Origin: a virus
Reading direction: 5' to 3' (one strand)
DNA length: 48,272 bases
IMG/VR virus record: IMGVR_UViG_3300030060_004007
Span: 1 to 48,272 of that record
The notes beneath the pieces are model-generated. The model searched no databases. It was not told the DNA's origin and was given only the letters and a program-made list of their open reading frames with translations. Both the position numbers and the translations under genes were made by a program. Positions 16,090 through 31,100 of this stretch are shown here, piece after piece. Numbering within the stretch: the first letter of the stretch is position 1; each line of letters opens with the position of its first letter.

Positions 16090-16648
16090 CCCTTCATTTT
16101 CTTCTGTATCTCCTCAGCTTCTAACTCTTTCATTGTAATATGTATAAATAATAACTCCTTAAACATTGAATATGGTAATTGATAAAGTTCTAATGGGCTC
16201 ACTCCTAATCCTTTTGATAGTGTATATAATGCAACTTTGGATGTAATACTAAAGTCTTTTTTTCTACCCCTAATTACATCCGTTATTCTTTTTTTTCTTC
16301 TTCCTCGTTTCCACCCATAACGTTTGGTAAGATTTCTTTAATTTGATTACCAACATATGGGGTTAATCTAAGTAAATCTACTGCACTAAGATTTGGTTCA
16401 GTCTTTTCAATAAAAGTTTCAAATAAATATCTAGTGGCTTCAGCCATATTAATATCTACTTCTTGAGTTCTTGGGTTAACTTTTACTAATTTCATTTGTG
16501 CTTTTTCTACTTCCAAAAAGGTGGGTTCTTTAACCCAAACTTTCAGGTATTCATCCGAATCAGGTTCTACCCTGATATAATGCATTTCTGTTTCTTGTTT
16601 TGCAAACAAGTTCGCTTTATTACTAACAATTTTCTTTTCTTTTAACAT
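16086..16648 (-). CDS. Tail assembly chaperone, -1 frameshift fusion
   Basis: This is the longer product of the chaperone gene. Ribosomes that slip back one base at the run of eight A residues at 16289-16296 leave the short frame just before its stop at 16283. They then read 67 more codons, ending in a TGA at 16086-16088 that overlaps the tape measure start. The extension begins RITDVIRGRKKDF and continues through VALYTLSKGLGVSPLELYQL and FKELLFIHITMKELEAEEI. This is the expected chaperone-like helical content (compare lambda gpG/gpGT). The fusion would be about 187 aa. The extension has no convincing start and no ribosome site of its own at its beginning, which favours frameshifting over a separate gene. 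Frameshift efficiency cannot be judged from sequence. Confidence 0.78.
16283..16648 (-). CDS. Tail assembly chaperone, short form
   Basis: The 121-residue unshifted product corresponds to lambda gpG: a small acidic chaperone between the tail tube and the tape measure that keeps the tape measure soluble during tail assembly. The body has a short beta region (HYIRVEPDSDEYLKVWVKEP) followed by helices and ends in an acidic NEEEEKKE tail. I place the start at the ATG at 16648 rather than the in-frame GTG at 16660, because the GGTGGAG ribosome site lies six bases before 16648 and covers the GTG. The acidic tail is encoded by the same A-rich tract that serves as the slippery site. Confidence 0.75.
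   Translation of the reverse strand: MLKEKKIVSNKANLFAKQETEMHYIRVEPDSDEYLKVWVKEPTFLEVEKAQMKLVKVNPRTQEVDINMAEATRYLFETFIEKTEPNLSAVDLLRLTPYVGNQIKEILPNVMGGNEEEEKKE
16289..16295 (-). promoter_or_regulatory. Programmed -1 frameshift slippery site
   Basis: On the minus strand the coding frame reads GAA-AAA-AAA-GAA-TAA, giving the heptamer A-AAA-AAA followed by G, with the zero-frame stop only six bases downstream. This is a canonical X-XXY-YYZ slip site. Its position between tail tube and tape measure matches the conserved frameshift of long-tailed phages. I did not identify a convincing downstream stem-loop or pseudoknot by eye. Confidence 0.75.
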
Positions 16649-16709
16649 TTTTTTCTCCACCTTTTTTTACCAACAAACAAACAAACGGTGTTGGTGGAAT
16701 ATAACATTA

Positions 16710-16868
16710 TCAAGCAGATTTGGAATTCTCTTCCTTACCCTCCGCTTTAGCCGCTTTCTTCTCTGCGGCTTTCTTAGCCCTTTCAGCCTTAGCCGCTGCT
16801 TTTGCGGCTTTAACATCATTTTCTATTTTTAATTTTAATTTATCAGTATAAGAATAGCCTTGTCCCAT
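16710..16868 (-). CDS. Small Ala/Lys-rich protein (52 aa)
   Basis: This short gene fills the space between the tail tube and the chaperone. It starts at an ATG five bases after the tail tube stop; the GGGGTGATT before it provides a ribosome site. The peptide starts MGQGYSYTDKLKLKI and continues as an Ala/Lys/Glu-rich helix with repeated AAK/KKAAEK units, ending ENSKSA. A single strongly charged helix of this type could be a coiled coil or an RNA/DNA-contacting peptide. Its reading frame, spacing and ribosome site support a real gene; its role is unknown. A minor accessory to tail assembly is the contextual guess. Confidence 0.65.
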   Translation of the reverse strand: MGQGYSYTDKLKLKIENDVKAAKAAAKAERAKKAAEKKAAKAEGKEENSKSA

Positions 16869-19061: not shown

Positions 19062-19249
19062 TATATTCCACTTTCCTTCATTGATTTATCAACCATATTA
19101 GCTAGTTCTTTTTCTATTTTCTCAACTATGAAAGCCATTATTTCTTCATCAGAATAACTAAATTCTCCTAAACCTGTATCTTGAAATAATCTATTTCTTT
19201 CTTCGTACATTTCCTGTATTCTTTTAGTGATACGTATAATATCACTCAA
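19061..19249 (-). CDS. Small hypothetical protein in the head-tail joining region
   Basis: The 62-residue peptide MSDIIRITKRIQEMYEERNR is followed by an acidic middle (GEFSYSDEEIMAFIVEKI) and a helical end. It overlaps the connector candidate upstream by 8 bases and the terminator candidate downstream by one base, so it is embedded in a coupled set of head-tail joining genes. It is all-helical by appearance, without cysteines or a membrane segment. I do not recognise the family; a small connector or chaperone is the contextual possibility. Confidence 0.55.
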   Translation of the reverse strand: MSDIIRITKRIQEMYEERNRLFQDTGLGEFSYSDEEIMAFIVEKIEKELANMVDKSMKESGI

Positions 19250-20360
19250 TCAAGAACACCCCTTCTTGTTTACCATTAACAATTTCCATTGCCTCTGTTC
19301 TTAATATATCGTATTTCTCTTTAACAGATATTTGATTTCCAGACTCAGTAATAAGTACAGTTGCATCATCTGAACGTAGTATCTCACAAGCAACTAATTT
19401 AGTTGCAGCATCAGTAATAACTGCTGGGACTGTTCCACTACCAGCAAAATAAGTAGCCCTAACAGAATTAAGATGAATATATGGGTATTTATCTCTAAAG
19501 AAAATCCTACCTTCTCTACCTATTTTCCACCATTCTTCTTTTCTACCGCTTTCTTCTTTATCAGTAAATGAGCCAACCTCTACACCTTGAGTAGAAGTGG
19601 TAGCTGCATTTCCATTCATATATATGGTACAATTAGCACCATCATCACTTGGTAATAATGATGAAATCAGAACTTTACTTGAGTCCTCAGAATCAAGACA
19701 AGCATAGAAAAAATCTGAAACTTGTTTAGCACCAGTTGAATCTGTCTGTCCTTTTGCCTGAGTTGCTCCAGTTAATGCAGCAGTTTGAGAAGGATACTTT
19801 TCATTAATGAGTGAAACAAGTTCCATTGCTGCGGTTTTATTACCATAGGTAGTATCAAATCTTGAATTAGTAGTACCAGCAAGTAAATTGAACACTAAAC
19901 CATTATTAGGTAAACGAAGATTAATTGTGGTTGTTCCACTAACCATCGAGGTATAATCATTCATTGTTACAGAAGCCTCTGCTCCACAAATATTAGTCCA
20001 TTGAGTGCCTTCCCAAATATCTAATCTAATCATTTTAGAAATACTATGTCTATCTAACTGAACAAAACCGAGATAATCTCTCCATCTTCCAGCAGGATAA
20101 TGTCCTATTCCAGTTGTGAAATTATGATGTTCCTTTTCATATAACAGCCTCCTCCAAGAAGTTTTAGTTTTATTATCGATGAAATCCTCAATTCTTTTAA
20201 TGAATTCACCAACTTCAGAATGCATAGGGGTTGTATTGGCAGTGAAATTAGGAATCTGTAGTAGCTCTGCTACCTTAGAAGAAGTAGTATAATATCCATT
20301 ACCTGTAGAATAATCAGCATTAATAACGGTTGTATCTGAAGGAGACTTATATTGTGCCAT
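19242..20360 (-). CDS. Head-tail connector (adaptor) candidate
   Basis: The 372-residue protein has an N-terminal helical region (SSKVAELLQIPNF, VGEFIKRIEDFIDNKTKTSW) of the sort seen in head-tail adaptors that bind below the portal. A large beta-rich insertion follows, with GGTTTINLRLPNNG-like strands and an MNGNAATTSTQGVEVG segment. The C-terminal part returns to a helical ATKLVACEILRSDDATVLIT region, matching the helical ends of adaptor folds. It lies between head genes and the terminator. Adaptors are usually 100-150 aa, so the size implies an extra decorating domain. Confidence is moderate because no motif is diagnostic. Confidence 0.42.
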   Translation of the reverse strand: MAQYKSPSDTTVINADYSTGNGYYTTSSKVAELLQIPNFTANTTPMHSEVGEFIKRIEDFIDNKTKTSWRRLLYEKEHHNFTTGIGHYPAGRWRDYLGFVQLDRHSISKMIRLDIWEGTQWTNICGAEASVTMNDYTSMVSGTTTINLRLPNNGLVFNLLAGTTNSRFDTTYGNKTAAMELVSLINEKYPSQTAALTGATQAKGQTDSTGAKQVSDFFYACLDSEDSSKVLISSLLPSDDGANCTIYMNGNAATTSTQGVEVGSFTDKEESGRKEEWWKIGREGRIFFRDKYPYIHLNSVRATYFAGSGTVPAVITDAATKLVACEILRSDDATVLITESGNQISVKEKYDILRTEAMEIVNGKQEGVFLIE

Positions 20361-20362
20361 AA

Positions 20363-21427
20363 CTAATCCTCTATACCTTTTGGAATTTTATTTAAAACTC
20401 TTTCTATTTTCTCAAGTCTAGCATTTATAAATTTAAAATAATCAGCTCTAAACATCATTATTTTTTCATTTTCTTCTTTATTTCTACGTTTAACTGCTGC
20501 ACTACCAGCATCAGTAGTTTCCCCAACATTTTCTCGGATTTCATGATTCACTTTATGCCTTATATCAAACACTCTAAATTCTTTTATTTCTTTTCCATCA
20601 TGTATTATTTCTAATTTAAATTTAAACTCATTCAATAATAATGGGTTAACAATATAATTAGTACTATCATTATCCTGCATTATTTCTAATACAAATACAA
20701 ATTTATTTTCATCAATCCAATCGTTTACAATTTCCTCAAATGTTTTATCTTCTTCAATAGATATTATATCTTTAACATATGGTTTTTCCTTATCTAATTG
20801 TATTAAGTCTTTTGATTCTGGTTGTTTTCCTTTATAGTCAACCACTTCTATTTTAATACCAGTATTATCATATCTTTTTATTTTTATATCTCCATCAGAT
20901 GTAGACTCTAATTTTGCGTCTATAACTACACTAAAGTTTCCATCTTCAAGTTGATGAGGTTTTTTATCTTCAAAAACTATTGATTCTATTATATCGTTAA
21001 TTTTAATGGGTGTATTATCTAAACCCCCAAATAACTCTAACTCTTTATTAACTTTATTTTTATCTTCAACATCTTTTATTTTAAAATCATCAGATATTTC
21101 TTCATATCCAATGGATTTTTTAAGGGCTTCAATACCATCAATACTGTCCATTGTATCTTTTAATGATTTATCTTTAATTTCATTTAATAGTTCTTCTAAC
21201 TTATTTTTATACCAATCCGAATGTTTACTAGTATAAATCATATTTTTATTTTCAAAGGCATCATCTAAATTTCTAATAAATTTAGGAGCATAATTAGTAT
21301 GTCTTTGAATAATTTGGTTTTTAGCAACAATGTATTTTTCTATTTCTTCATCTAAAATAATATTTATTTTGTTACCTTCTTCTCTACTTATTACTTTTCT
21401 ATCCTTATCGTACCAAATTAATCTCAT
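20363..21427 (-). CDS. Hypothetical acidic/charged protein (354 aa)
   Basis: I do not recognise this protein. It begins MRLIWYDKDRKVISREEGNK and is very rich in Lys, Glu, Asp and Ile, with helices early (EKYIVAKNQIIQRH, WYKNKLEELLNEIKDKSL). A beta-like centre follows (GNFSVVIDAKLESTSDGDIK, FVFVLEIMQDNDSTNYIVN), then a C-terminal helix near IMMFRADYFKFINARLEKIE. No catalytic motif, zinc site or membrane segment is visible. It lies between a Gly/Met-rich protein and the connector candidate, so it is probably a virion or assembly protein. Confidence 0.5.
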   Translation of the reverse strand: MRLIWYDKDRKVISREEGNKINIILDEEIEKYIVAKNQIIQRHTNYAPKFIRNLDDAFENKNMIYTSKHSDWYKNKLEELLNEIKDKSLKDTMDSIDGIEALKKSIGYEEISDDFKIKDVEDKNKVNKELELFGGLDNTPIKINDIIESIVFEDKKPHQLEDGNFSVVIDAKLESTSDGDIKIKRYDNTGIKIEVVDYKGKQPESKDLIQLDKEKPYVKDIISIEEDKTFEEIVNDWIDENKFVFVLEIMQDNDSTNYIVNPLLLNEFKFKLEIIHDGKEIKEFRVFDIRHKVNHEIRENVGETTDAGSAAVKRRNKEENEKIMMFRADYFKFINARLEKIERVLNKIPKGIED

Positions 21428-21433
21428 GTTTTA

Positions 21434-22177
21434 TCACGCTAACCACTTGGCCCAAGCAGCACCCTTGGAAATCATTTTTCCTAATCCTAAGCCACTATTT
21501 GGTGGAGTATAAGACGCTTGACCAGTAGCGGGGTCAATCCAATATGGATTGTTATAATTATCATAACCAGCAGGGGGAACAGGATAACCAGATTGATTAT
21601 TCATTGCGTTTTGTTGCATCATCATTTGTTGATTCATACCACCTTGAGGTGGTGCTCCCTGAATGGGCATACCATTTGGACCCATTGCAGCAGCGGCTCC
21701 AGCAGCTCCTACACCCATTGCTCCAGCAGCCATTGGTGCTCCCATATTTCCTCCACCTTGAGGGTTAGAACCATCACCAAATCCTTGGGCTTCTAAATAT
21801 TGACTTTTAGCCATCTGTCTTTGGTAAACTACTTCTGAATTAACTGATGCCCCTAATATCTTTTGAATGTCTAATTCTATGTTTTCTTCAGTTATTTGTT
21901 GATATTTAGTAAGACAAGTTTTTTCTAGAATTATATCTCCCTGTGTGGCATCTAATTTAAAATGTAAATCAGCCAACATTTGACTTACTACTCTTTGTAC
22001 TACATCTTCTAATAGTTTTTCAAACGTAGTCAAAAAAGCCTCACCGTGATACAGTAAAAATTCTTCAACGTGATTATCCTGTAAAGTCAAAAGATTATTC
22101 ATTGCTTTGAAATTACTTTGACTATTATTATTCATTTGTGTAGCGAGCGCACCATTACTTGTTCCGAAAAGTCCCAT
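21434..22177 (-). CDS. Protein with helical N terminus and Gly/Met/Pro/Gln-rich tail
   Basis: The 247-residue product has two different halves. Residues 1-125 are helical, with EEFLLYHGEAFLTTFEKLLE and VVSQMLADLHFKLDATQGDI. Residues about 130-225 are low complexity: Gly, Ala, Met, Pro and Gln in runs such as GAPMAAGAMGVGAAGAAAAM and GGMNQQMMMQQNAMNNQSG. A final segment reads GLGLGKMISKGAAWAKWLA, amphipathic or weakly membrane-active in appearance. The low-complexity tail could act as a flexible linker or a condensation-prone segment. The gene sits directly after the zinc-binding gene that follows the GTPase. The function is unknown. Confidence 0.52.
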   Translation of the reverse strand: MGLFGTSNGALATQMNNNSQSNFKAMNNLLTLQDNHVEEFLLYHGEAFLTTFEKLLEDVVQRVVSQMLADLHFKLDATQGDIILEKTCLTKYQQITEENIELDIQKILGASVNSEVVYQRQMAKSQYLEAQGFGDGSNPQGGGNMGAPMAAGAMGVGAAGAAAAMGPNGMPIQGAPPQGGMNQQMMMQQNAMNNQSGYPVPPAGYDNYNNPYWIDPATGQASYTPPNSGLGLGKMISKGAAWAKWLA

Positions 22178-22179
22178 TT

Positions 22180-22818
22180 TTATTCACCTAATAATTCATC
22201 TATTTGTCCTATTTTTCCTTTTAATTCTGTTAACAATGAAAATAATTTTTCCTCTGCGGTAGTAGTGTCAGCCTCTGGCGGTGTTATTTCCCAGCCCTTA
22301 GAGGTTAATGAAATTATATCCTTTTCACTTAATGTTTGCATTGGGCCTCTATTCATAAGTTGTGGTACTTTTGGTCTAGGAATATATCTTTTAAATTCTA
22401 AACCGTGTTTTTCAGCAAGAACTTGTTGTTCTAACATTTCCATTTGTTTAAAGATAGAAGAATGTCTAGGACAGTATGTTCCTTGTAATGGTCTTCCTTT
22501 ATTTACGTGAGATAATGGAATAGGAGGTCTAAGATTATCCCCAGCTTCCCAAATGTGGTGTGCTCCACAAACAACACACCTATCCCTAATATTAAATCTA
22601 AATCCATACTTTTTGAATATAAATTTCTTTTTCTCTGGTAAAAGTACCTTTTTAATTTCCTTCATTTGTTTCTTTGTATCTATAGATTTAAACTCATAAG
22701 TTATAATAGGGCCAGATATTCTAGCATTATTACTTATTCTAGCACCATTAATCATTGTATTCATAGAACTATCATTCATTCCTATAATATTTGGCGTATA
22801 TACCATTTGTTGCGTCAT
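22180..22818 (-). CDS. Putative zinc-binding protein next to the GTPase
   Basis: This 212-residue protein contains a probable zinc site: C81-V-V-C84-G-A-H-H near the middle and C116-P-R-H119 about 30 residues later, a treble-clef or HNH-like spacing. A catalytic HNH motif is not clear. The N terminus is loop-rich (MNDSSMNTMINGARISNNAR), followed by a basic helix (KQMKEIKKVLLPEKKKFIFK), and the C terminus ends in an acidic amphipathic helix (EKLFSLLTELKGKIGQIDEL). It starts 2 bases after the GTPase stop with an AAGGAG ribosome site, so the two are probably co-expressed in fixed proportion. A partner or effector of the GTPase is one possibility; a structural zinc protein is equally possible. 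Confidence 0.55.
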   Translation of the reverse strand: MTQQMVYTPNIIGMNDSSMNTMINGARISNNARISGPIITYEFKSIDTKKQMKEIKKVLLPEKKKFIFKKYGFRFNIRDRCVVCGAHHIWEAGDNLRPPIPLSHVNKGRPLQGTYCPRHSSIFKQMEMLEQQVLAEKHGLEFKRYIPRPKVPQLMNRGPMQTLSEKDIISLTSKGWEITPPEADTTTAEEKLFSLLTELKGKIGQIDELLGE

Positions 22819-22820
22819 AT

Positions 22821-23498
22821 TCAGTACTCCTTAACCATTGTCATTATTCCTCTGTAGACCATTTCGGGGTCTGACTTGGCAGATACGATGTATTTGAAAC
22901 ATGGAATACCCCTATCCTGTAAACGTTGCATACCGAGCCTGAATGGCTCAAAGATGGGGTGTTTATCGATGGCCCCGTTGAATTCATATTTATCTTTCCA
23001 CAAATCGTATTTATTAGCCCATACTCCTACGGCTACTGGGAAGTCCTTCTCCTTCTTCTTTTTAGATTTATTCTTATTTAATCTCCAATACTCATCACAA
23101 ATAGTATCGACTAGAAACTGCCAACCTAATTGGTTTTCTAAATTATATGCTTCATTTAAATGCCTATCATCAATCATAAAAATAATATATTTTACATTTC
23201 TATTTTTCATATCTTTTTTCCAAGCATCCCAATAATAAGTCTGTCCACCTACATCAGCCGTTTTGATAGTTCTAGAATCTTTATCTATTTTTACTACCTT
23301 TCTAGTGGCTCTTTTTAATCCAACTGTTCTATCTTTAACTACAGGTACTTCACCTCTAGTTCTTAATTGATGATGCAAAGTAGTTTTACCAACCTTGGAA
23401 GCACCATAGACTCCAAAATTTAAAGCGTGTAATCTTTGGTATAATTTTGCTGCTGCCTCTGCTGCTAATATAGAAAATCCTGTTAATAATGTAGCCAT
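22821..23498 (-). CDS. Arf/Ras-like small GTPase
   Basis: The 225-residue protein has all conserved G motifs of the small GTPase superfamily. G1 P-loop is G32-A-S-K-V-G-K38-T39; a G2 threonine lies near residue 58 (DRTVGLKRATRK); G3 is D82-V-G-G-Q86; G4 is N162-K-Y-D165; G5 is S206-A-K208. DVGGQ is the form typical of Arf/Arl and G-alpha proteins, and Gln86 corresponds to the residue that positions the hydrolytic water. The N terminus (TLLTGFSILAAEAAAKLYQR) is a hydrophobic/amphipathic helix, as used by Arf proteins for membrane contact. A lysine-rich insert (NKNKSKKKKEKD, 141-152) precedes G4. It is embedded in the structural operon, one base from the stop of a membrane protein gene. Catalysis looks intact; the role in the virus is unknown. 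Confidence 0.88.
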   Translation of the reverse strand: MATLLTGFSILAAEAAAKLYQRLHALNFGVYGASKVGKTTLHHQLRTRGEVPVVKDRTVGLKRATRKVVKIDKDSRTIKTADVGGQTYYWDAWKKDMKNRNVKYIIFMIDDRHLNEAYNLENQLGWQFLVDTICDEYWRLNKNKSKKKKEKDFPVAVGVWANKYDLWKDKYEFNGAIDKHPIFEPFRLGMQRLQDRGIPCFKYIVSAKSDPEMVYRGIMTMVKEY

Positions 23499-23717
23499 TT
23501 AGCCCAATCCAAATAGGTGTTTGATTTTAGAAGCAAACATACCTAGGAAATTTATGCCGTTAGCTCCTAATATGTTACCAAGAAAAAAACACACAACAGA
23601 TACTATTGCTCCCCATAATAAAGCACGTATTTTAATAAAAAACACGTCTGCTGAATGTGCTCTCGATAAATCATAAGCTAATGATTGTTCATCAACGCCT
23701 AATAATCGGTCTAGCAT
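23499..23717 (-). CDS. Small membrane protein upstream of the GTPase
   Basis: I start this gene at the ATG at 23717, which is four bases after a GGTGAT ribosome site; the in-frame GTG at 23729 overlaps that site. The 72-residue product has a charged N terminus (LDRLLGVDEQSLAYDLSRAH), a strong membrane segment (ALLWGAIVSVVCFFLGNILG) and an amphipathic end (FLGMFASKIKHLFGLG). Its stop touches the GTPase start, indicating coupled translation. It could recruit the GTPase to a membrane, act as a holin-like protein, or be an internal virion membrane-active peptide. None of these can be decided from sequence. Confidence 0.65.
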   Translation of the reverse strand: MLDRLLGVDEQSLAYDLSRAHSADVFFIKIRALLWGAIVSVVCFFLGNILGANGINFLGMFASKIKHLFGLG

Positions 23718-23739
23718 TTTTATCACCAATCATTAATTA

Positions 23740-24126
23740 TCATTCCAGAGCCTTTAGAAATTGTTCAGAAACCTCATCATAAGGTCCACCTTCACCTGAA
23801 GCCCTATAGTAACTTAAGTTTCTAGAGCTCATAGTTTCACGAATTTTCTGTCTTTGTTGTTCATCTCTATTTTTCTTCTGCCAATACATGTCTATTTTTC
23901 TATTCAATAACCATGTTTCTAATCTCTCATTAACCGCTAAATCGAACAACGCCTTTTGTAGCATAATCACACCAACTGTAATTAAAGAAAATAATATGGC
24001 GTGAGATATTGCGGGGAAAGGTAATTGTGCTCCATATACTGAATAAAAATAAACATTCAATCCAGAAACTGCCCCCACATACATTATCGTCATTACTAAC
24101 CTTGTGTCTTTATCTATAGCCGCCAT
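23740..24126 (-). CDS. Two-span membrane protein with charged tail
   Basis: The 128-residue protein has two hydrophobic segments, about 11-32 (VMTIMYVGAVSGLNVYFYSV) and 38-60 (FPAISHAILFSLITVGVIML). A long charged helix follows (ETWLLNRKIDMYWQKKNRDE and onwards), ending with EQFLKALE. Two spans plus a charged cytoplasmic tail resemble some holins, but it lies in the head/decoration region next to the GTPase and another membrane protein, so a GTPase-linked membrane role is as plausible. The start follows a GAGGGATATGA sequence. Confidence 0.62.
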   Translation of the reverse strand: MAAIDKDTRLVMTIMYVGAVSGLNVYFYSVYGAQLPFPAISHAILFSLITVGVIMLQKALFDLAVNERLETWLLNRKIDMYWQKKNRDEQQRQKIRETMSSRNLSYYRASGEGGPYDEVSEQFLKALE

Positions 24127-24153: not shown

Positions 24154-24471
24154 TTAATTAAACTCTACAGTAAATGTTGTTCCTGTTCCACTAACATCTG
24201 TAACATCTGCAAATAAACCAGTAGTAAACCTTACCCCATGCATATCTGCTTCGTTATATGAATCTCCTTCAGATGCTAAACCAACATATAACATACCTAA
24301 CATATTAGCATCGTTACATGCTCCTTGTGATAAACAATCATGAATTGTTACATATCCGGTGTCTGTTCCGGTTGCAAATCCATGAATGCTAATTAGTTTA
24401 CCAACACCTGTATAAATCAATGTGTCAGCACTAATAGCCCCACTGCTTCTACATCCACCTATACCCGTCAT
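24154..24471 (-). CDS. Small beta virion protein, paralogue 1
   Basis: The 105-residue product is a tandem paralogue of the next gene upstream in transcription (24493-24825). Both share GGCRSSGA-x-SAD-x-L near the N terminus, then TGxGKLISIxG, HDCL, LYVG, EADMHGVxF and a C-terminal FN. The repeated strand pattern without charged clusters suggests a compact beta-sandwich. Such small paired proteins next to capsid genes are often head decoration, head fibre or tail-tip proteins. The conserved Cys in GGCRSSG and in HDCL could form a disulphide. The exact role is not established by sequence. Confidence 0.6.
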   Translation of the reverse strand: MTGIGGCRSSGAISADTLIYTGVGKLISIHGFATGTDTGYVTIHDCLSQGACNDANMLGMLYVGLASEGDSYNEADMHGVRFTTGLFADVTDVSGTGTTFTVEFN

Positions 24472-24492: not shown

Positions 24493-24825
24493 TTAATTAA
24501 ATGTCACTAAGAATTTAGTTGCAGTCCCTGCTACATGAGTAATCTCAGCAAATATACCGTTTTTGAACGTGACACCATGCATATCTGCTTCAACAAAATT
24601 ACCAGCAGTTCCAGTAGTACCAACATATAACACGCCAATAGTATTTGCGGCACTAGCATCACCAGCAATTAAACAGTCATGTAAAACTACATATGCTGAA
24701 TTATCAACTGGCCCAGTAGTAACAAAAGACATACCAGTAATGCTAATTAATTTACCTGAGCCAGTAAAAAGTAATTTGTCAGCACTAAAGGCTCCGCTAC
24801 TTCTACAGCCTCCTATACTACTCAT
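24493..24825 (-). CDS. Small beta virion protein, paralogue 2
   Basis: This 110-residue product is the upstream copy of the duplicated pair. It matches its neighbour over its entire length, with a few-residue insertion in the loop after the first ISITG strand (TTGPVDNSAYVVLHDCL versus TDTGYVTIHDCL). The two genes are separated by about 20 bases, so the duplication is tandem, yet the proteins have diverged substantially, consistent with an old duplication and separate roles or a hetero-oligomer. Decoration or head fibre is the likeliest function by position. Confidence 0.6.
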   Translation of the reverse strand: MSSIGGCRSSGAFSADKLLFTGSGKLISITGMSFVTTGPVDNSAYVVLHDCLIAGDASAANTIGVLYVGTTGTAGNFVEADMHGVTFKNGIFAEITHVAGTATKFLVTFN

Positions 24826-25896: not shown

Positions 25897-27264
25897 TCAG
25901 AAAAGGTTAGTAATCTTGCCTTGTCCCTTGAAGAAGGTACATCCAGTCTCACCCATTGTTCGGTAAAGTCCTCGGTTTCCGAGTACTCCAACACCGAATG
26001 GATTTCCGTGACTAATACCATCCTCAAAGTATTGGGTTGGTTTTAGTGTAGCGAACCACAAATGGTCTGTGTCTAGTAAGAGGATGTCAGAAAGTTTAGT
26101 TCCTGAGTATCCACCAGTTGATGGCATATCTTTTGCTGGAATTAGTGGGATATCGTAGTATGTTGCAACACGGAATCCTACTTCTGCTCCCTTTACACCC
26201 TTTACACCGTTATGGGTTGGCATTACCTCTTTAGAGTCCATGAATCGCTCTTGGCTCTGTAGAAGGTCAGAGATTGCCTGAATTGTGTCGTATCCTGTTA
26301 GCATAACTTTAGGTGCTCCACCATTCAATCGTAGGTTCTGTATTACACTGTTAATTATACTTAGTGTGAATTGACGACCAGCAGTTGCATAGCTTCCACC
26401 AAAGTTTACTTCAGCATCCAAGTAAGATGCAGCACTTCGGGTTGCTCCGTAAATGATTTTTGCATCATCGTCAGTATTTGCGTAGTTGTTTGTTCCACCG
26501 ATTGATGAAAGGTTGTGAATACCGACTGTATCTGCCAATTCTCCGAATGAGCTAACTATCTTCATTAGAGATGTGTATTGTTCACGGATTCTTCCGTTTG
26601 TTGCTGAAACATCTGCACCAAAGTCATCGTACATTTCTAGAGGCATAACTAGCATCTTAGATTGTGATTCAGCATGGAATTTACCCATGTCTTCACGGAT
26701 TAGCTTACGTAGGTCGCCAACACCGTCATCGATTTTTGCCATCTCAGAAGCCAATTCGCTGTAGTCAAACATGTGAGCTACAATCTTTGGGTTCATGTAT
26801 AGGTTAGCATACTCTGGAGCCATTGCAAGAAGAGAAGAAGAACCGAGTGCTTCGTTTTCTCCTACTCCACCAATTATATCTGCATCAGGTGCAGCAGTTC
26901 CTTGTGCAGCAGTTCCAGCAGTTGTTGATATTCCAAAAGCAGCTCCACTTCCACCTTGTGGCCTGTTTGTCATTACTCTCCATCCACTTGCTGTGTATGG
27001 CCTCTTTGGTAGAATTGAAAGTGGGTTGATTTCTTGGTTAATCATTGACCAAACTTTCTGTCCGTAAATGATATTGTAAAGGTTAGATGCACCAGTTGTA
27101 GCTGTACCGTTAAGGTTAATTGCATCTCCAGAGGAACCGGGGAAACCGCTTCCTATTGAACCAACAACTCCAGCAGCTTTCAATAGACTGTTACCTGCTA
27201 GTCCACCGAAGTTACCGTAAGTTGCGGCTTCCAAATCTTTCATTGTGTTAATGTATTTTGTCAT
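25897..27264 (-). CDS. Major capsid protein (HK97-fold)
   Basis: This 455-residue protein follows the prohead protease/scaffold gene and is the expected major capsid subunit. It has an N-terminal helical lead (YINTMKDLEAATYGNFGGLA) and a NPLSILPKRPYTASGWRV segment like the start of the E-loop/P-domain in HK97 proteins. A long helix-rich centre includes DLRKLIREDMGKFHAESQSK, and the C-terminal strands include TKLSDILLLDTDHLWFATLK. I prefer the ATG at 27264 over 27273, because AAGGAG abuts the first ATG but is well placed for the second. Arginine codons CGT/CGA and C-ending codons are clearly more common here than in neighbours, as expected for a very highly expressed gene. A cleaved N-terminal propeptide is possible. 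Confidence 0.85.
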   Translation of the reverse strand: MTKYINTMKDLEAATYGNFGGLAGNSLLKAAGVVGSIGSGFPGSSGDAINLNGTATTGASNLYNIIYGQKVWSMINQEINPLSILPKRPYTASGWRVMTNRPQGGSGAAFGISTTAGTAAQGTAAPDADIIGGVGENEALGSSSLLAMAPEYANLYMNPKIVAHMFDYSELASEMAKIDDGVGDLRKLIREDMGKFHAESQSKMLVMPLEMYDDFGADVSATNGRIREQYTSLMKIVSSFGELADTVGIHNLSSIGGTNNYANTDDDAKIIYGATRSAASYLDAEVNFGGSYATAGRQFTLSIINSVIQNLRLNGGAPKVMLTGYDTIQAISDLLQSQERFMDSKEVMPTHNGVKGVKGAEVGFRVATYYDIPLIPAKDMPSTGGYSGTKLSDILLLDTDHLWFATLKPTQYFEDGISHGNPFGVGVLGNRGLYRTMGETGCTFFKGQGKITNLF

Positions 27265-27302
27265 TCTTTTCATCTCCTTATTTTTATTTTTATTTATCTA
27301 GT

Positions 27303-28616: not shown

Positions 28617-31100
28617 TTAACTGTTCCTGAATTTTAAATCAGAAAACTTATCTTCTTTAATATCCCAAACACCATCATCTGTGTCTGAATCAACTGGTTT
28701 AGTTTCAATACCAGTCCAAGCTAACCAAGTATCTTTATCCTTAACTGGTATAACTCTAACATGAAATTTAGTATCAAATTTATTACCAGATAACATATAT
28801 TCGTGATATCCATCTCTTTGAACTCCTAATTCTACTTTACCTGAATCAATAAGTTTACCTTGTTTAAAATGGGTTTCTATTTGGGCAGGGAATTTACCAG
28901 ATTTACCGAATAAAGAAAATATATCTTCTTCATCTTCTATATCTATTTCCCACCCAAATAACTCATCACTTACATTAAACATTATACATAAATTATCATT
29001 ATCTTTTTTATAGATTTTAAATTCGCCTTTTCTATATTTATCGGGAGTAGAGTAATCTTTCTCTATCGTATCATCGGTGTGAAAAAAAGTATCTTTAGTT
29101 TTATCATAAGAGATATCCTGTAGTGTTTTCATCCAATTTTTTAATTTCATACCATCAGAATCAAACAAATTATTGAAAGCTGTGAAGTGTTTTTCTAACA
29201 CAAATTTTTCTATTAATTCAAAAGAAGACTCACCTGTATTTATTAAGAAATTCCTAAGTGATAATCTAAATTTTGATTTTTGGGTTTTCAACATCTCTTC
29301 TATTTCAGTCTTCCAAACATCAATATCTAGTAATGCATTTTTGGCCATTAAATTGTCCTCTTCAAAACCATAAAAAGTAAACCCGTCTAAATCTGATTTA
29401 ATAATAGCAGTAGTTTCACCATGTATAACATCAGAAATACGATACCCTTTTTCTAAAGCCTTTACATCATAATTTAATGAACGCTTTGTATCTTGCGATA
29501 ATAAATCTAATGTGATTAATTTTTCAGGTAATTCAACTTCGGGAATCTCTATAACTTTAGCAGAGAATAGTTTGTAACCACCATTCTTATCTTTCTTCAC
29601 TTCATCTATTTTCACTCTAATAATAGTACCAACTTCAACGTCTATTTTAGTATTCAATGCTTTACCTACTTCCAAATATTTTCTATCATTAATCACTTTA
29701 GTATTTTTAAATTCATCACTATCTGATAATGGTCCAGCACCTAGAGTATAAGTAAACATGTCTGATTTAGTAGTTTTCTTATCTAATACCATCATATCTA
29801 AATCTACAAATTTCTTCCACTTAATCCACTTTGGATTTTTCTTAGTCCCTATAAAATAAGTTGATGTAATGTCCTTTATTACTACCCCCTCAGCAGTAGG
29901 TATTTCCATTATTTCCTTTGAATACTCTTCTACTTCTTTAATAGAATCAGCATAACGAGTATCTTTCTTAGAAGGGAATGCTAGTTTCTCATCTGAATGG
30001 GTTGAATAATTATTGAAGAGTATAGCCACCCTTTCGGATAATTCTTCTTCATGTAATTCTCTGTCTTCATGTCTCATAATATCAAAGACATGCGCTCTTA
30101 ATTCTGAATCTTCTGCTTCCTTTCCTTTGAATATTCTAGCAACAACTTCAGCCCTATGTAATGGTTCTTCTTTCTGGAAAAGCATCAACTCAGCATCTAA
30201 TATACAATCACCAAAATGTTTAGCTCTCATTATTTTCTTCTGTTCAGGACATTTATCTGTAATGTCTTTACCATTAAAAGAGTAAATCTTAATTTGTTCA
30301 TCTATTTTATGAATCTGTATCCTCATACCATCATATTTTTCTTGAACTATCCACTTACCAGTAAAACCTCTTAACTCATTTAAATCATCTATCTCAAATA
30401 TCCTATACATTGGTTTGTTAGGTACTAAAAAATGAACATCAGATTTCTGTGCTTTTTTTAAACTAACAATATTGTCCCATTTAGACTGACCGTGATGAGA
30501 AACATAAATTTCCTCTAATAGTTTTCTAGCAGCTTTATATTTACCACCTATTCTTTTACTATCTTTACCATCAGCATAATGTTCTACAATAAAATCGATA
30601 ACATCTTTTTCAGCTAAATTGAGCCCTTTGTAACCTTCACTTATGGTATCTGGTTCTAAATCTTTAATTTCCCAAGCCTTATCACTCAACGATTTATCAT
30701 GTATTCTTATTGCCCAGTGTATAAATTTAGCAAAGAGAGAAGGATTGGACATTAAATTATCAAATGTTTCTTCTCCAAACTTTATACTAAAGGGGTCCTT
30801 TACCATATCAGAAGAATATCTTAATTCCTTTATTTGAGAATAAATCTCTCTTGCAATATCTGATTCTACATCTTCAGCTCCATCAGAAAATAAATCATCC
30901 TCAGATATCTTCGATTTTATTTCTTTACTAAATTCATCAATATCATCCCACTGTTCACGTAAAACCTTTATCTCAGATGACCATTTCTTGCCGTATTGTC
31001 TAGGGTCTGATAAAGCAGAAAGATATGACATTCGCATTTTTTCAAAAAATTGAATGACCCTGAGAGTTATTGGGGTATCTTTCGTAATAGAGACAGGCAC
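28617..31100 (-). CDS. ATP-dependent DNA ligase with C-terminal extension
   Basis: The 827-residue protein carries the nucleotidyltransferase motifs of ATP-dependent DNA ligases: motif I EKYDGMR with catalytic Lys255, motif III LDAEL (301-305), motif IV EGVVIKD (404-410) and motif V KWIKWKK (424-430). An OB-like region follows to about 530 (VGTIIRVKIDEVKKDKNGGY). Residues 1-230 form a helical N-terminal domain, likely DNA-binding. The extra C-terminal part includes a beta-rich block at about 670-790 (FKIYKKDNDNLCIMFNVSDE, YHEYMLSGNKFDTKFHVRVI) that faintly recalls the LigD phosphoesterase barrel but lacks its histidines; that comparison is speculative. Ligases normally sit with replication genes; this one lies between small head genes and the prohead protease. 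Nick sealing of packaged or ejected DNA is a possible role. Confidence 0.85.
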   Translation of the reverse strand: MPVSITKDTPITLRVIQFFEKMRMSYLSALSDPRQYGKKWSSEIKVLREQWDDIDEFSKEIKSKISEDDLFSDGAEDVESDIAREIYSQIKELRYSSDMVKDPFSIKFGEETFDNLMSNPSLFAKFIHWAIRIHDKSLSDKAWEIKDLEPDTISEGYKGLNLAEKDVIDFIVEHYADGKDSKRIGGKYKAARKLLEEIYVSHHGQSKWDNIVSLKKAQKSDVHFLVPNKPMYRIFEIDDLNELRGFTGKWIVQEKYDGMRIQIHKIDEQIKIYSFNGKDITDKCPEQKKIMRAKHFGDCILDAELMLFQKEEPLHRAEVVARIFKGKEAEDSELRAHVFDIMRHEDRELHEEELSERVAILFNNYSTHSDEKLAFPSKKDTRYADSIKEVEEYSKEIMEIPTAEGVVIKDITSTYFIGTKKNPKWIKWKKFVDLDMMVLDKKTTKSDMFTYTLGAGPLSDSDEFKNTKVINDRKYLEVGKALNTKIDVEVGTIIRVKIDEVKKDKNGGYKLFSAKVIEIPEVELPEKLITLDLLSQDTKRSLNYDVKALEKGYRISDVIHGETTAIIKSDLDGFTFYGFEEDNLMAKNALLDIDVWKTEIEEMLKTQKSKFRLSLRNFLINTGESSFELIEKFVLEKHFTAFNNLFDSDGMKLKNWMKTLQDISYDKTKDTFFHTDDTIEKDYSTPDKYRKGEFKIYKKDNDNLCIMFNVSDELFGWEIDIEDEEDIFSLFGKSGKFPAQIETHFKQGKLIDSGKVELGVQRDGYHEYMLSGNKFDTKFHVRVIPVKDKDTWLAWTGIETKPVDSDTDDGVWDIKEDKFSDLKFRNS

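Follow-up and report, generated by a model that had tools for sequence, protein, structure and literature searches.

A gene that, by its motifs and predicted fold, encodes a small GTPase of the Ras superfamily forms a cassette with four neighbouring genes, two of which encode small membrane proteins, in one clade of the magroviruses. That a GTPase-membrane cassette is conserved in abundant archaeal viruses, and defines a clade among them, is the larger result of the analysis reported here, which started from a single GTPase gene in the window (the whole stretch of DNA analyzed, 48,272 nucleotides of IMG/VR virus record IMGVR_UViG_3300030060_004007). Magroviruses rank with the most abundant viruses of the sea (PMC10160649); for the exit of tailed viruses from archaeal cells, no holin-type system has been found (PMC4456609). 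A GTPase and membrane-protein cassette carried by one magrovirus clade, but not by the sister clade, is a defined candidate for a membrane step.

The GTPase gene and its relatives

Judged on its motifs, sequence matches and fold, the ORF at 22821-23498 encodes a genuine GTPase of the Ras superfamily, with the following features:

22821-23498, minus strand: small Ras-superfamily GTPase, ATG start, 225 amino acids
23430-23495, minus strand: N-terminal hydrophobic helix, residues 2-23, probable membrane anchor (AlphaFold2 secondary structure, hydrophobicity, conservation)
23382-23405, minus strand: G1/P-loop GASKVGKT, residues 32-39 (GxxxxGKTT in 129/129 homologues)
23325-23327, minus strand: G2 switch-I Thr58 (conserved in 129/129)
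23241-23255, minus strand: G3 DVGGQ, residues 82-86 (position 86 Glu in 90/129, Gln in 39/129)
23046-23078, minus strand: Lys-rich loop, residues 141-151, an alpha3/beta5 insertion relative to Ras/Arf
23004-23015, minus strand: G4 NKYD, residues 162-165 (NKxD in 129/129)
22875-22883, minus strand: G5 SAK, residues 206-208 (129/129)

The first-pass annotation had described a complete series of G motifs in a gene of the structural operon, and both points are borne out: the motifs, from GASKVGKT through Thr58, DVGGQ and NKYD to SAK, follow each other in the claimed order, and the gene lies between capsid and neck genes. Relatives of the GTPase are encoded on at least 322 and at least 202 IMG/VR contigs in two overlapping scans, both counts being lower bounds, and 129 distinct homologues were extracted. 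Pairwise identity among them goes down to approximately 49%, and GxxxxGKTT, R57-T58, D82, G84-G85, N162-K163-x-D165 and S206-A207-K208 are each invariant (129/129), far more than chance would give. No third residue occurs beside Glu and Gln at position 86, that of the catalytic Gln; Glu, which is found in relatives L016-L025 and in most others, is apparently the commoner state of the family. From the sequence, we infer that the protein would bind and hydrolyze GTP.

Sequence comparisons indicate that the gene is inherited vertically under strong constraint: its median dN/dS is 0.056 (429 pairs; strongly purifying), that of the major capsid protein is 0.111 (542 pairs), and pairwise identities of the GTPase correlate with those of the capsid protein (r = 0.81). 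The GTPase is a core gene in its own virus lineage, and not a rare one there. The wider rarity of small GTPases in tailed viruses, as first suggested, is supported by the databases searched. The window GTPase had no match among 50,697 INPHARED phage records, in which a divergent relative gave chance-level matches only; no convincing homologue was found in 72,556 plasmids, and PHROGs held no real match, its weak matches to Sak4 and guanylate kinase being rejected as homologues on account of P-loop similarity. Among the 50 matches listed from the BFVD predicted viral structures, all that carry a name come from giant eukaryotic viruses and none from a tailed virus, making the Ras/Rab-like GTPases of giant viruses the sole virus-encoded structural relatives among these matches. 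Those GTPases were acquired from eukaryotic hosts and belong to a different virus realm, and we know of no comparable cassette around them.

A scan of cellular genome contigs with family-specific peptide patterns, which distant host GTPases would escape, returned just two contigs with the viral GTPase, both binned as Maricaulis. These contigs (NZMJ01000101.1 and NZMJ01000024.1; our loci L094 and L095) carry it at 62-66% identity and appear to be magrovirus sequence that contaminates the genome bin. The magrovirus, Poseidoniales-virus and archaeal tailed-virus papers examined make no mention of a GTPase; some supplementary annotation table of earlier work could conceivably contain an entry for it.

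Fold and placement within the Ras superfamily

At the sequence level, the window protein is matched by Pfam Ras (1.5e-4, 21.8 bits, barely above the cut-off of 21.6) and by Arf PF00025 (2.5e-4, 21.0 bits, under the curated cut-off of 22.3), with further weak but consistent Pfam and NCBIfam matches to MMR_HSR1, Roc, SRPRB and TIGR00231 small_GTP. Among solved structures, sequence matches were obtained to Arl8 (approximately 3e-4) and to 8oun, a GTP-binding protein. A profile search of the GTPase alignment against PDB sequences gave no match, and the superfamily assignment therefore rests on the motifs, the single-sequence matches and the fold. The latter was modeled with AlphaFold2 using 69 sequences from the window and related loci (mean pLDDT 78, pTM 0.78), and in this model the helix formed by residues 2-23 runs straight into beta1. 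A structure-based search, which had been proposed along with the first-pass annotation, led to Ras, Rab and Arf structures: Foldseek matched the model to the PDB 1,421 times at E <= 0.001, and the best 50 of these 1,421 matches are all Ras/Rab/Arf/Galpha-type GTPases or complexes containing them. Named matches include Rab33 (3e-9), Rab10, Rab6, KRAS, Arf6 (TMt 0.76) and the Asgard protein GerdArfR1.

These matches bear on a different reading, in which the protein would be a P-loop NTPase from outside the Ras superfamily that acts on DNA or in packaging, a placement that the first-pass annotation had set against its own. Fourteen of the 69 members match a Sak4-like P-loop family weakly (best 6e-4); the invariance of all G motifs, including NKxD and SAK, and fold matches that are Ras-superfamily proteins with E values down to 3e-9 make such a role highly improbable, and the protein did not fall into a packaging family of this kind.

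The more specific description of the protein as Arf/Ras-like holds in part. It belongs to the Ras superfamily, and the family carries signatures like those of Arf and G-alpha in G3 and switch I (DxGG in 129/129 and TxG in 128/129, with Gln in 39/129 and Glu in 90/129 at the position that follows DxGG). The short Arf-type interswitch is missing from it, since the distance from the switch-I Thr to the G3 Asp is 24 residues in the viral family, versus 19 in Arl8A and 23 in Rab11 (lengths taken from sequence alignments); the anchor-like helix is a further difference. Five families are the best represented among the Pfam matches of the 69 members (MMR_HSR1 59, Roc 48, SRPRB 37, Arf 29, Ras 17), so that no single family wins. 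The viral GTPase mixes an Arf-like signature (G3 DxGG) with a Rab-like one (interswitch spacing); we place it as a distinct, deeply divergent family of the Ras superfamily, which is not demonstrably an Arf.

The order and identity of G1-G5, the antiparallel beta2-beta3 between the switches and the AlphaFold2 fold are common to the viral GTPase and to Ras, Rab and Arf. When compared to the generally known spacings of Ras and Arf, the viral protein is longer by approximately 20 residues from G3 to G4 (Lys-rich loop) and by approximately 11-15 from G4 to G5; its catalytic Gln is mostly Glu, and its hydrophobic N-terminal helix leads directly into beta1. Arf/Arl proteins (PF00025), including Asgard ArfR (8oum/8oun), also carry TxG, DxGG and a helix right before beta1, but differ from the viral GTPase in the interswitch (19 versus 24 residues), in an amphipathic rather than hydrophobic helix and in the Pfam score, which is under the cut-off for the viral protein. 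The SRP receptor beta subunit (PF09439) has a G domain of Arf type preceded by an N-terminal membrane anchor, an arrangement that the viral GTPase probably shares, and 37 of the 69 viral members match it weakly; the window protein, however, scores far under the Pfam cut-off (16 versus 25 bits), and occurs without SRalpha or SRP context.

The N-terminal helix had been described at first pass as amphipathic, as in Arf proteins. A helix is indeed predicted (residues 2-23), but it is hydrophobic and not clearly amphipathic, with family means of 0.61 for Eisenberg hydrophobicity and 0.21 for the moment. A 19-mer with a Kyte-Doolittle value of at least 1.6 is present in this helix in 55% of the homologues; the helix of the window protein is borderline hydrophobic, with a best 19-mer of 1.33. 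Glu14 is found within the helix in 128/129 homologues, and the C-cap consists of Tyr/Trp followed by Lys/Arg. The combination of a hydrophobic helix, Glu14 and a Tyr/Trp-Lys/Arg end suits a membrane anchor with a cytoplasmic G domain, which we consider the probable arrangement.

The virus is a group A-like magrovirus

The virus is a magrovirus, group A-like, and, together with its long relatives, has in common with magroviruses a Druskaviridae-related capsid and portal, a split PolB, a ligase beside the protease and a chaperonin. The major capsid protein and the portal are approximately 26% and 27% identical to those of HVTV-1, with Druskaviridae as the nearest relatives; a relationship of magrovirus capsid and portal to Druskaviridae has been reported (PMC8651126, PMC12999244). 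The window is a 48-kb fragment. All 20 long relatives (86-103 kb) encode a family-B polymerase, which is carried by two ORFs in 15 and by one in 2, with only the first half detected in 3, in keeping with the 90-110 kb genome and virus-encoded PolB of magroviruses; published Aoguangviridae maps show separate PolB parts (PMC10768690). The chaperonin, which has served to connect MGII viruses with their host (PMC5332604), is present in 12 of the 20 long cassette-bearing relatives and in two sister-clade records. On the basis of the magrovirus literature (PMC12999244), the host is presumably a member of the Poseidoniales.

The structural operon also includes an 827-residue protein with an ATP-dependent DNA ligase core (28617-31100, minus strand; PF01068, 2e-28). 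Its gene adjoins that of the prohead protease in both magrovirus clades and lies further upstream in three sister loci; a DNA ligase beside the prohead protease has been reported for a group A magrovirus (PMC7318539). Druskaviridae have, in the comparable place, a 1313-residue 'zeta toxin' protein (HVTV-1 gp115).

A five-gene cassette separates magrovirus lineages

The partners of the GTPase and the genes that flank them are as follows:

25897-27273, minus strand: HK97-fold major capsid protein (SU10_MCP, phrog_24667), upstream of the cassette
23740-24126, minus strand: 128-residue membrane protein with a charged cytoplasmic-type tail; 160/160 loci, two TM segments in most homologues
23499-23729, minus strand: 76-residue single-TM protein with a near-invariant RAHSAD motif; 161/161 loci, 0-bp gap to the GTPase start
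22180-22818, minus strand: 212-residue protein with a putative CxxC...CxxH Zn site, no known family; 151/153 loci
21434-22177, minus strand: 247-residue protein with a helical N-terminal part, a low-complexity linker and a WW-like motif; 141/141 loci
19242-20360, minus strand: conserved protein, putative head-tail (neck) protein from its position, phrog_17057, downstream of the cassette

The five cassette genes are separated by gaps of 0-10 bp. Nearly every locus of sufficient length has the four partner genes near the GTPase, and in all spanning loci the cassette lies between decoration/capsid genes and neck/tail genes. Since these neighbour counts came from loci that had been found through the GTPase, an independent survey anchored on the capsid gene was made. 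Among its 50 loci, 43 are without all five genes, 7 carry the complete set and 0 a partial one. In a capsid tree, built quickly and with some long branches that lie away from the relevant part, the carriers group as a single clade (SH-aLRT 96), and one change suffices to account for the distribution. The sister clade has one long ORF of 600-1000 residues in the cassette slot, and a relocated GTPase was looked for in 11 non-carrier records, of which one is 88 kb long, and was not found. As the sister clade has the same capsid and ligase order without the cassette, the latter separates lineages inside the magrovirus radiation. We infer that the five proteins form a physical complex.

In the 76-residue protein, RAHSAD precedes the TM segment and is strictly conserved in approximately 125 homologues. 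The C-terminus of the 247-residue protein is amphipathic, and this is conserved. An I-BAR-like domain was considered for this protein on a single profile match (E 0.087) and rejected, the fold being unsupportive (poor model, pTM 0.32). Residues 196-223 (21509-21592, minus strand) form the WW-like motif PPxGYDxxxxPYWIDPxTGQxxYxPP. Pfam WW matches 11 of 39 members of this family, under the cut-off and over the second half only (best E 4.9e-4, in a relative), and no conserved PPxY partner was found among the virus proteins; we regard the WW domain as a lead.

A possible GTP-switched membrane complex

We tentatively favor, while rating it below an even chance, a reading in which the cassette encodes a complex that acts late at the host membrane under the control of a GTP switch, most likely to remodel this membrane for virion exit. 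The GTPase would be anchored to the host cytoplasmic membrane through its N-terminal hydrophobic helix, and would work with the two small integral membrane proteins, the Cys/His protein and the helical adaptor. When loaded with GTP, the switch would bring the membrane proteins and the helical protein to the membrane or arrange them there, and hydrolysis of GTP would reset it; most likely, the archaeal membrane would be remodeled or opened in order for virions to exit. As the cassette is part of the late structural operon, with capsid genes on one side and neck genes on the other, it is likely to act late in infection, and late expression would be expected. Virion exit as the purpose is our preferred guess. 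A stronger form, in which all five genes make up a complete GTP-switched machine by which the host membrane is shaped so that virions can exit or be wrapped, appears somewhat unlikely.

A membrane role is made more likely by the two co-inherited membrane proteins that adjoin the GTPase, whose genes are adjacent to it in 160/160 and 161/161 loci. Vesicle formation in Haloferax is driven by a small GTPase whose N-terminal helix is amphipathic (PMC10927574), and archaeal viruses have no known exit system of the holin type (PMC4456609). The Haloferax protein, ArvA (OapA), resembles the viral one in being an archaeal small GTPase with an N-terminal helix, encoded in an operon with a Zn-type protein (PMC10927574); this comparison is one of published descriptions, and the viral neighbours differ in including two TM proteins. 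No Pfam match to DUF2073 (ArvB) or DUF2072 (ArvC) was found in the genes next to the viral GTPase, and the cassette neighbours show no detectable relation to ArvB/ArvC or to membrane-remodeling folds.

Use of related small GTPases by archaea for vesiculation (PMC10927574) would also fit a host-directed mimic, by which the cassette would interfere with a host small GTPase pathway (e.g. vesicle shedding) or would exclude competing viruses through a change in the membrane. We consider this distinctly improbable, given that five co-inherited genes in a late structural operon are more suggestive of a machine than of an accessory decoy, and that the pattern-based scan found no host homologue that is close enough for mimicry.

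The position of the cassette, between decoration/capsid and neck/tail genes in all spanning loci, and the tracking of capsid protein divergence by the GTPase (r = 0.81) are also what would be expected of a GTP-dependent assembly checkpoint. Here, the membrane GTPase and the two membrane proteins would provide a site for procapsid nucleation or docking, and GTP hydrolysis would license, for instance, the incorporation of the portal or the joining of head and tail. Viruses with a homologous capsid and portal, namely sister magroviruses and haloviruses, however, assemble without the cassette, which weakens this explanation and argues against a general need for the cassette in building such capsids. 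We know of no tailed virus that needs a small GTPase for assembly, and rate a checkpoint as rather unlikely. The absence of the cassette from related magroviruses that make particles also qualifies the preferred role in virion exit, which would have to be lineage-specific or otherwise replaced in those viruses.

Location among head and neck genes could, in addition, point to a virion component for entry, the membrane proteins, GTPase and helical protein being packaged or placed at a vertex and delivered to the membrane of the new host, where they would aid genome entry. HVTV-1 encodes a short one-TM protein, gp124, at the matching place, but without detectable homology to the cassette, and a nucleotide switch with an invariant active site would be an unusual virion protein; a role in entry thus seems improbable.

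A GTPase that is probably tethered to the membrane, and whose gene always comes with the four partner genes, suggests that this lineage controls a membrane step, e.g. release, in a manner that is new for tailed viruses. If the membrane-complex reading is correct, Ras-superfamily membrane switches would extend from cells and giant viruses to archaeal tailed viruses, which would bear on the early history of these switches. In the stronger form, that of a complete five-gene machine, the cassette would be a functional parallel to the Arf/Rab systems of eukaryotes, and would have no known precedent as a small-GTPase membrane machine among viruses of prokaryotes.

Other genes of the structural operon

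A large protein that changes rapidly is encoded between the cassette and the putative neck gene. In the window, it is 354 residues long (20363-21427, minus strand) and has no homologue in 131 loci; in relatives L196-L253, the same slot is occupied by a protein of 600-1027 residues. It is possibly a capsid fibre or other surface protein. Two adjacent small proteins encoded at 24154-24471 and 24493-24825 (minus strand) are tandem duplicates that both begin with M..IGGCRSSGA.SAD, and are probably capsid decoration proteins. Finally, two short ORFs that follow the tail tube gene (16283-16868, minus strand) could encode a tail assembly chaperone pair; at the matching position, HVTV-1 carries a joined (frameshifted) chaperone pair.
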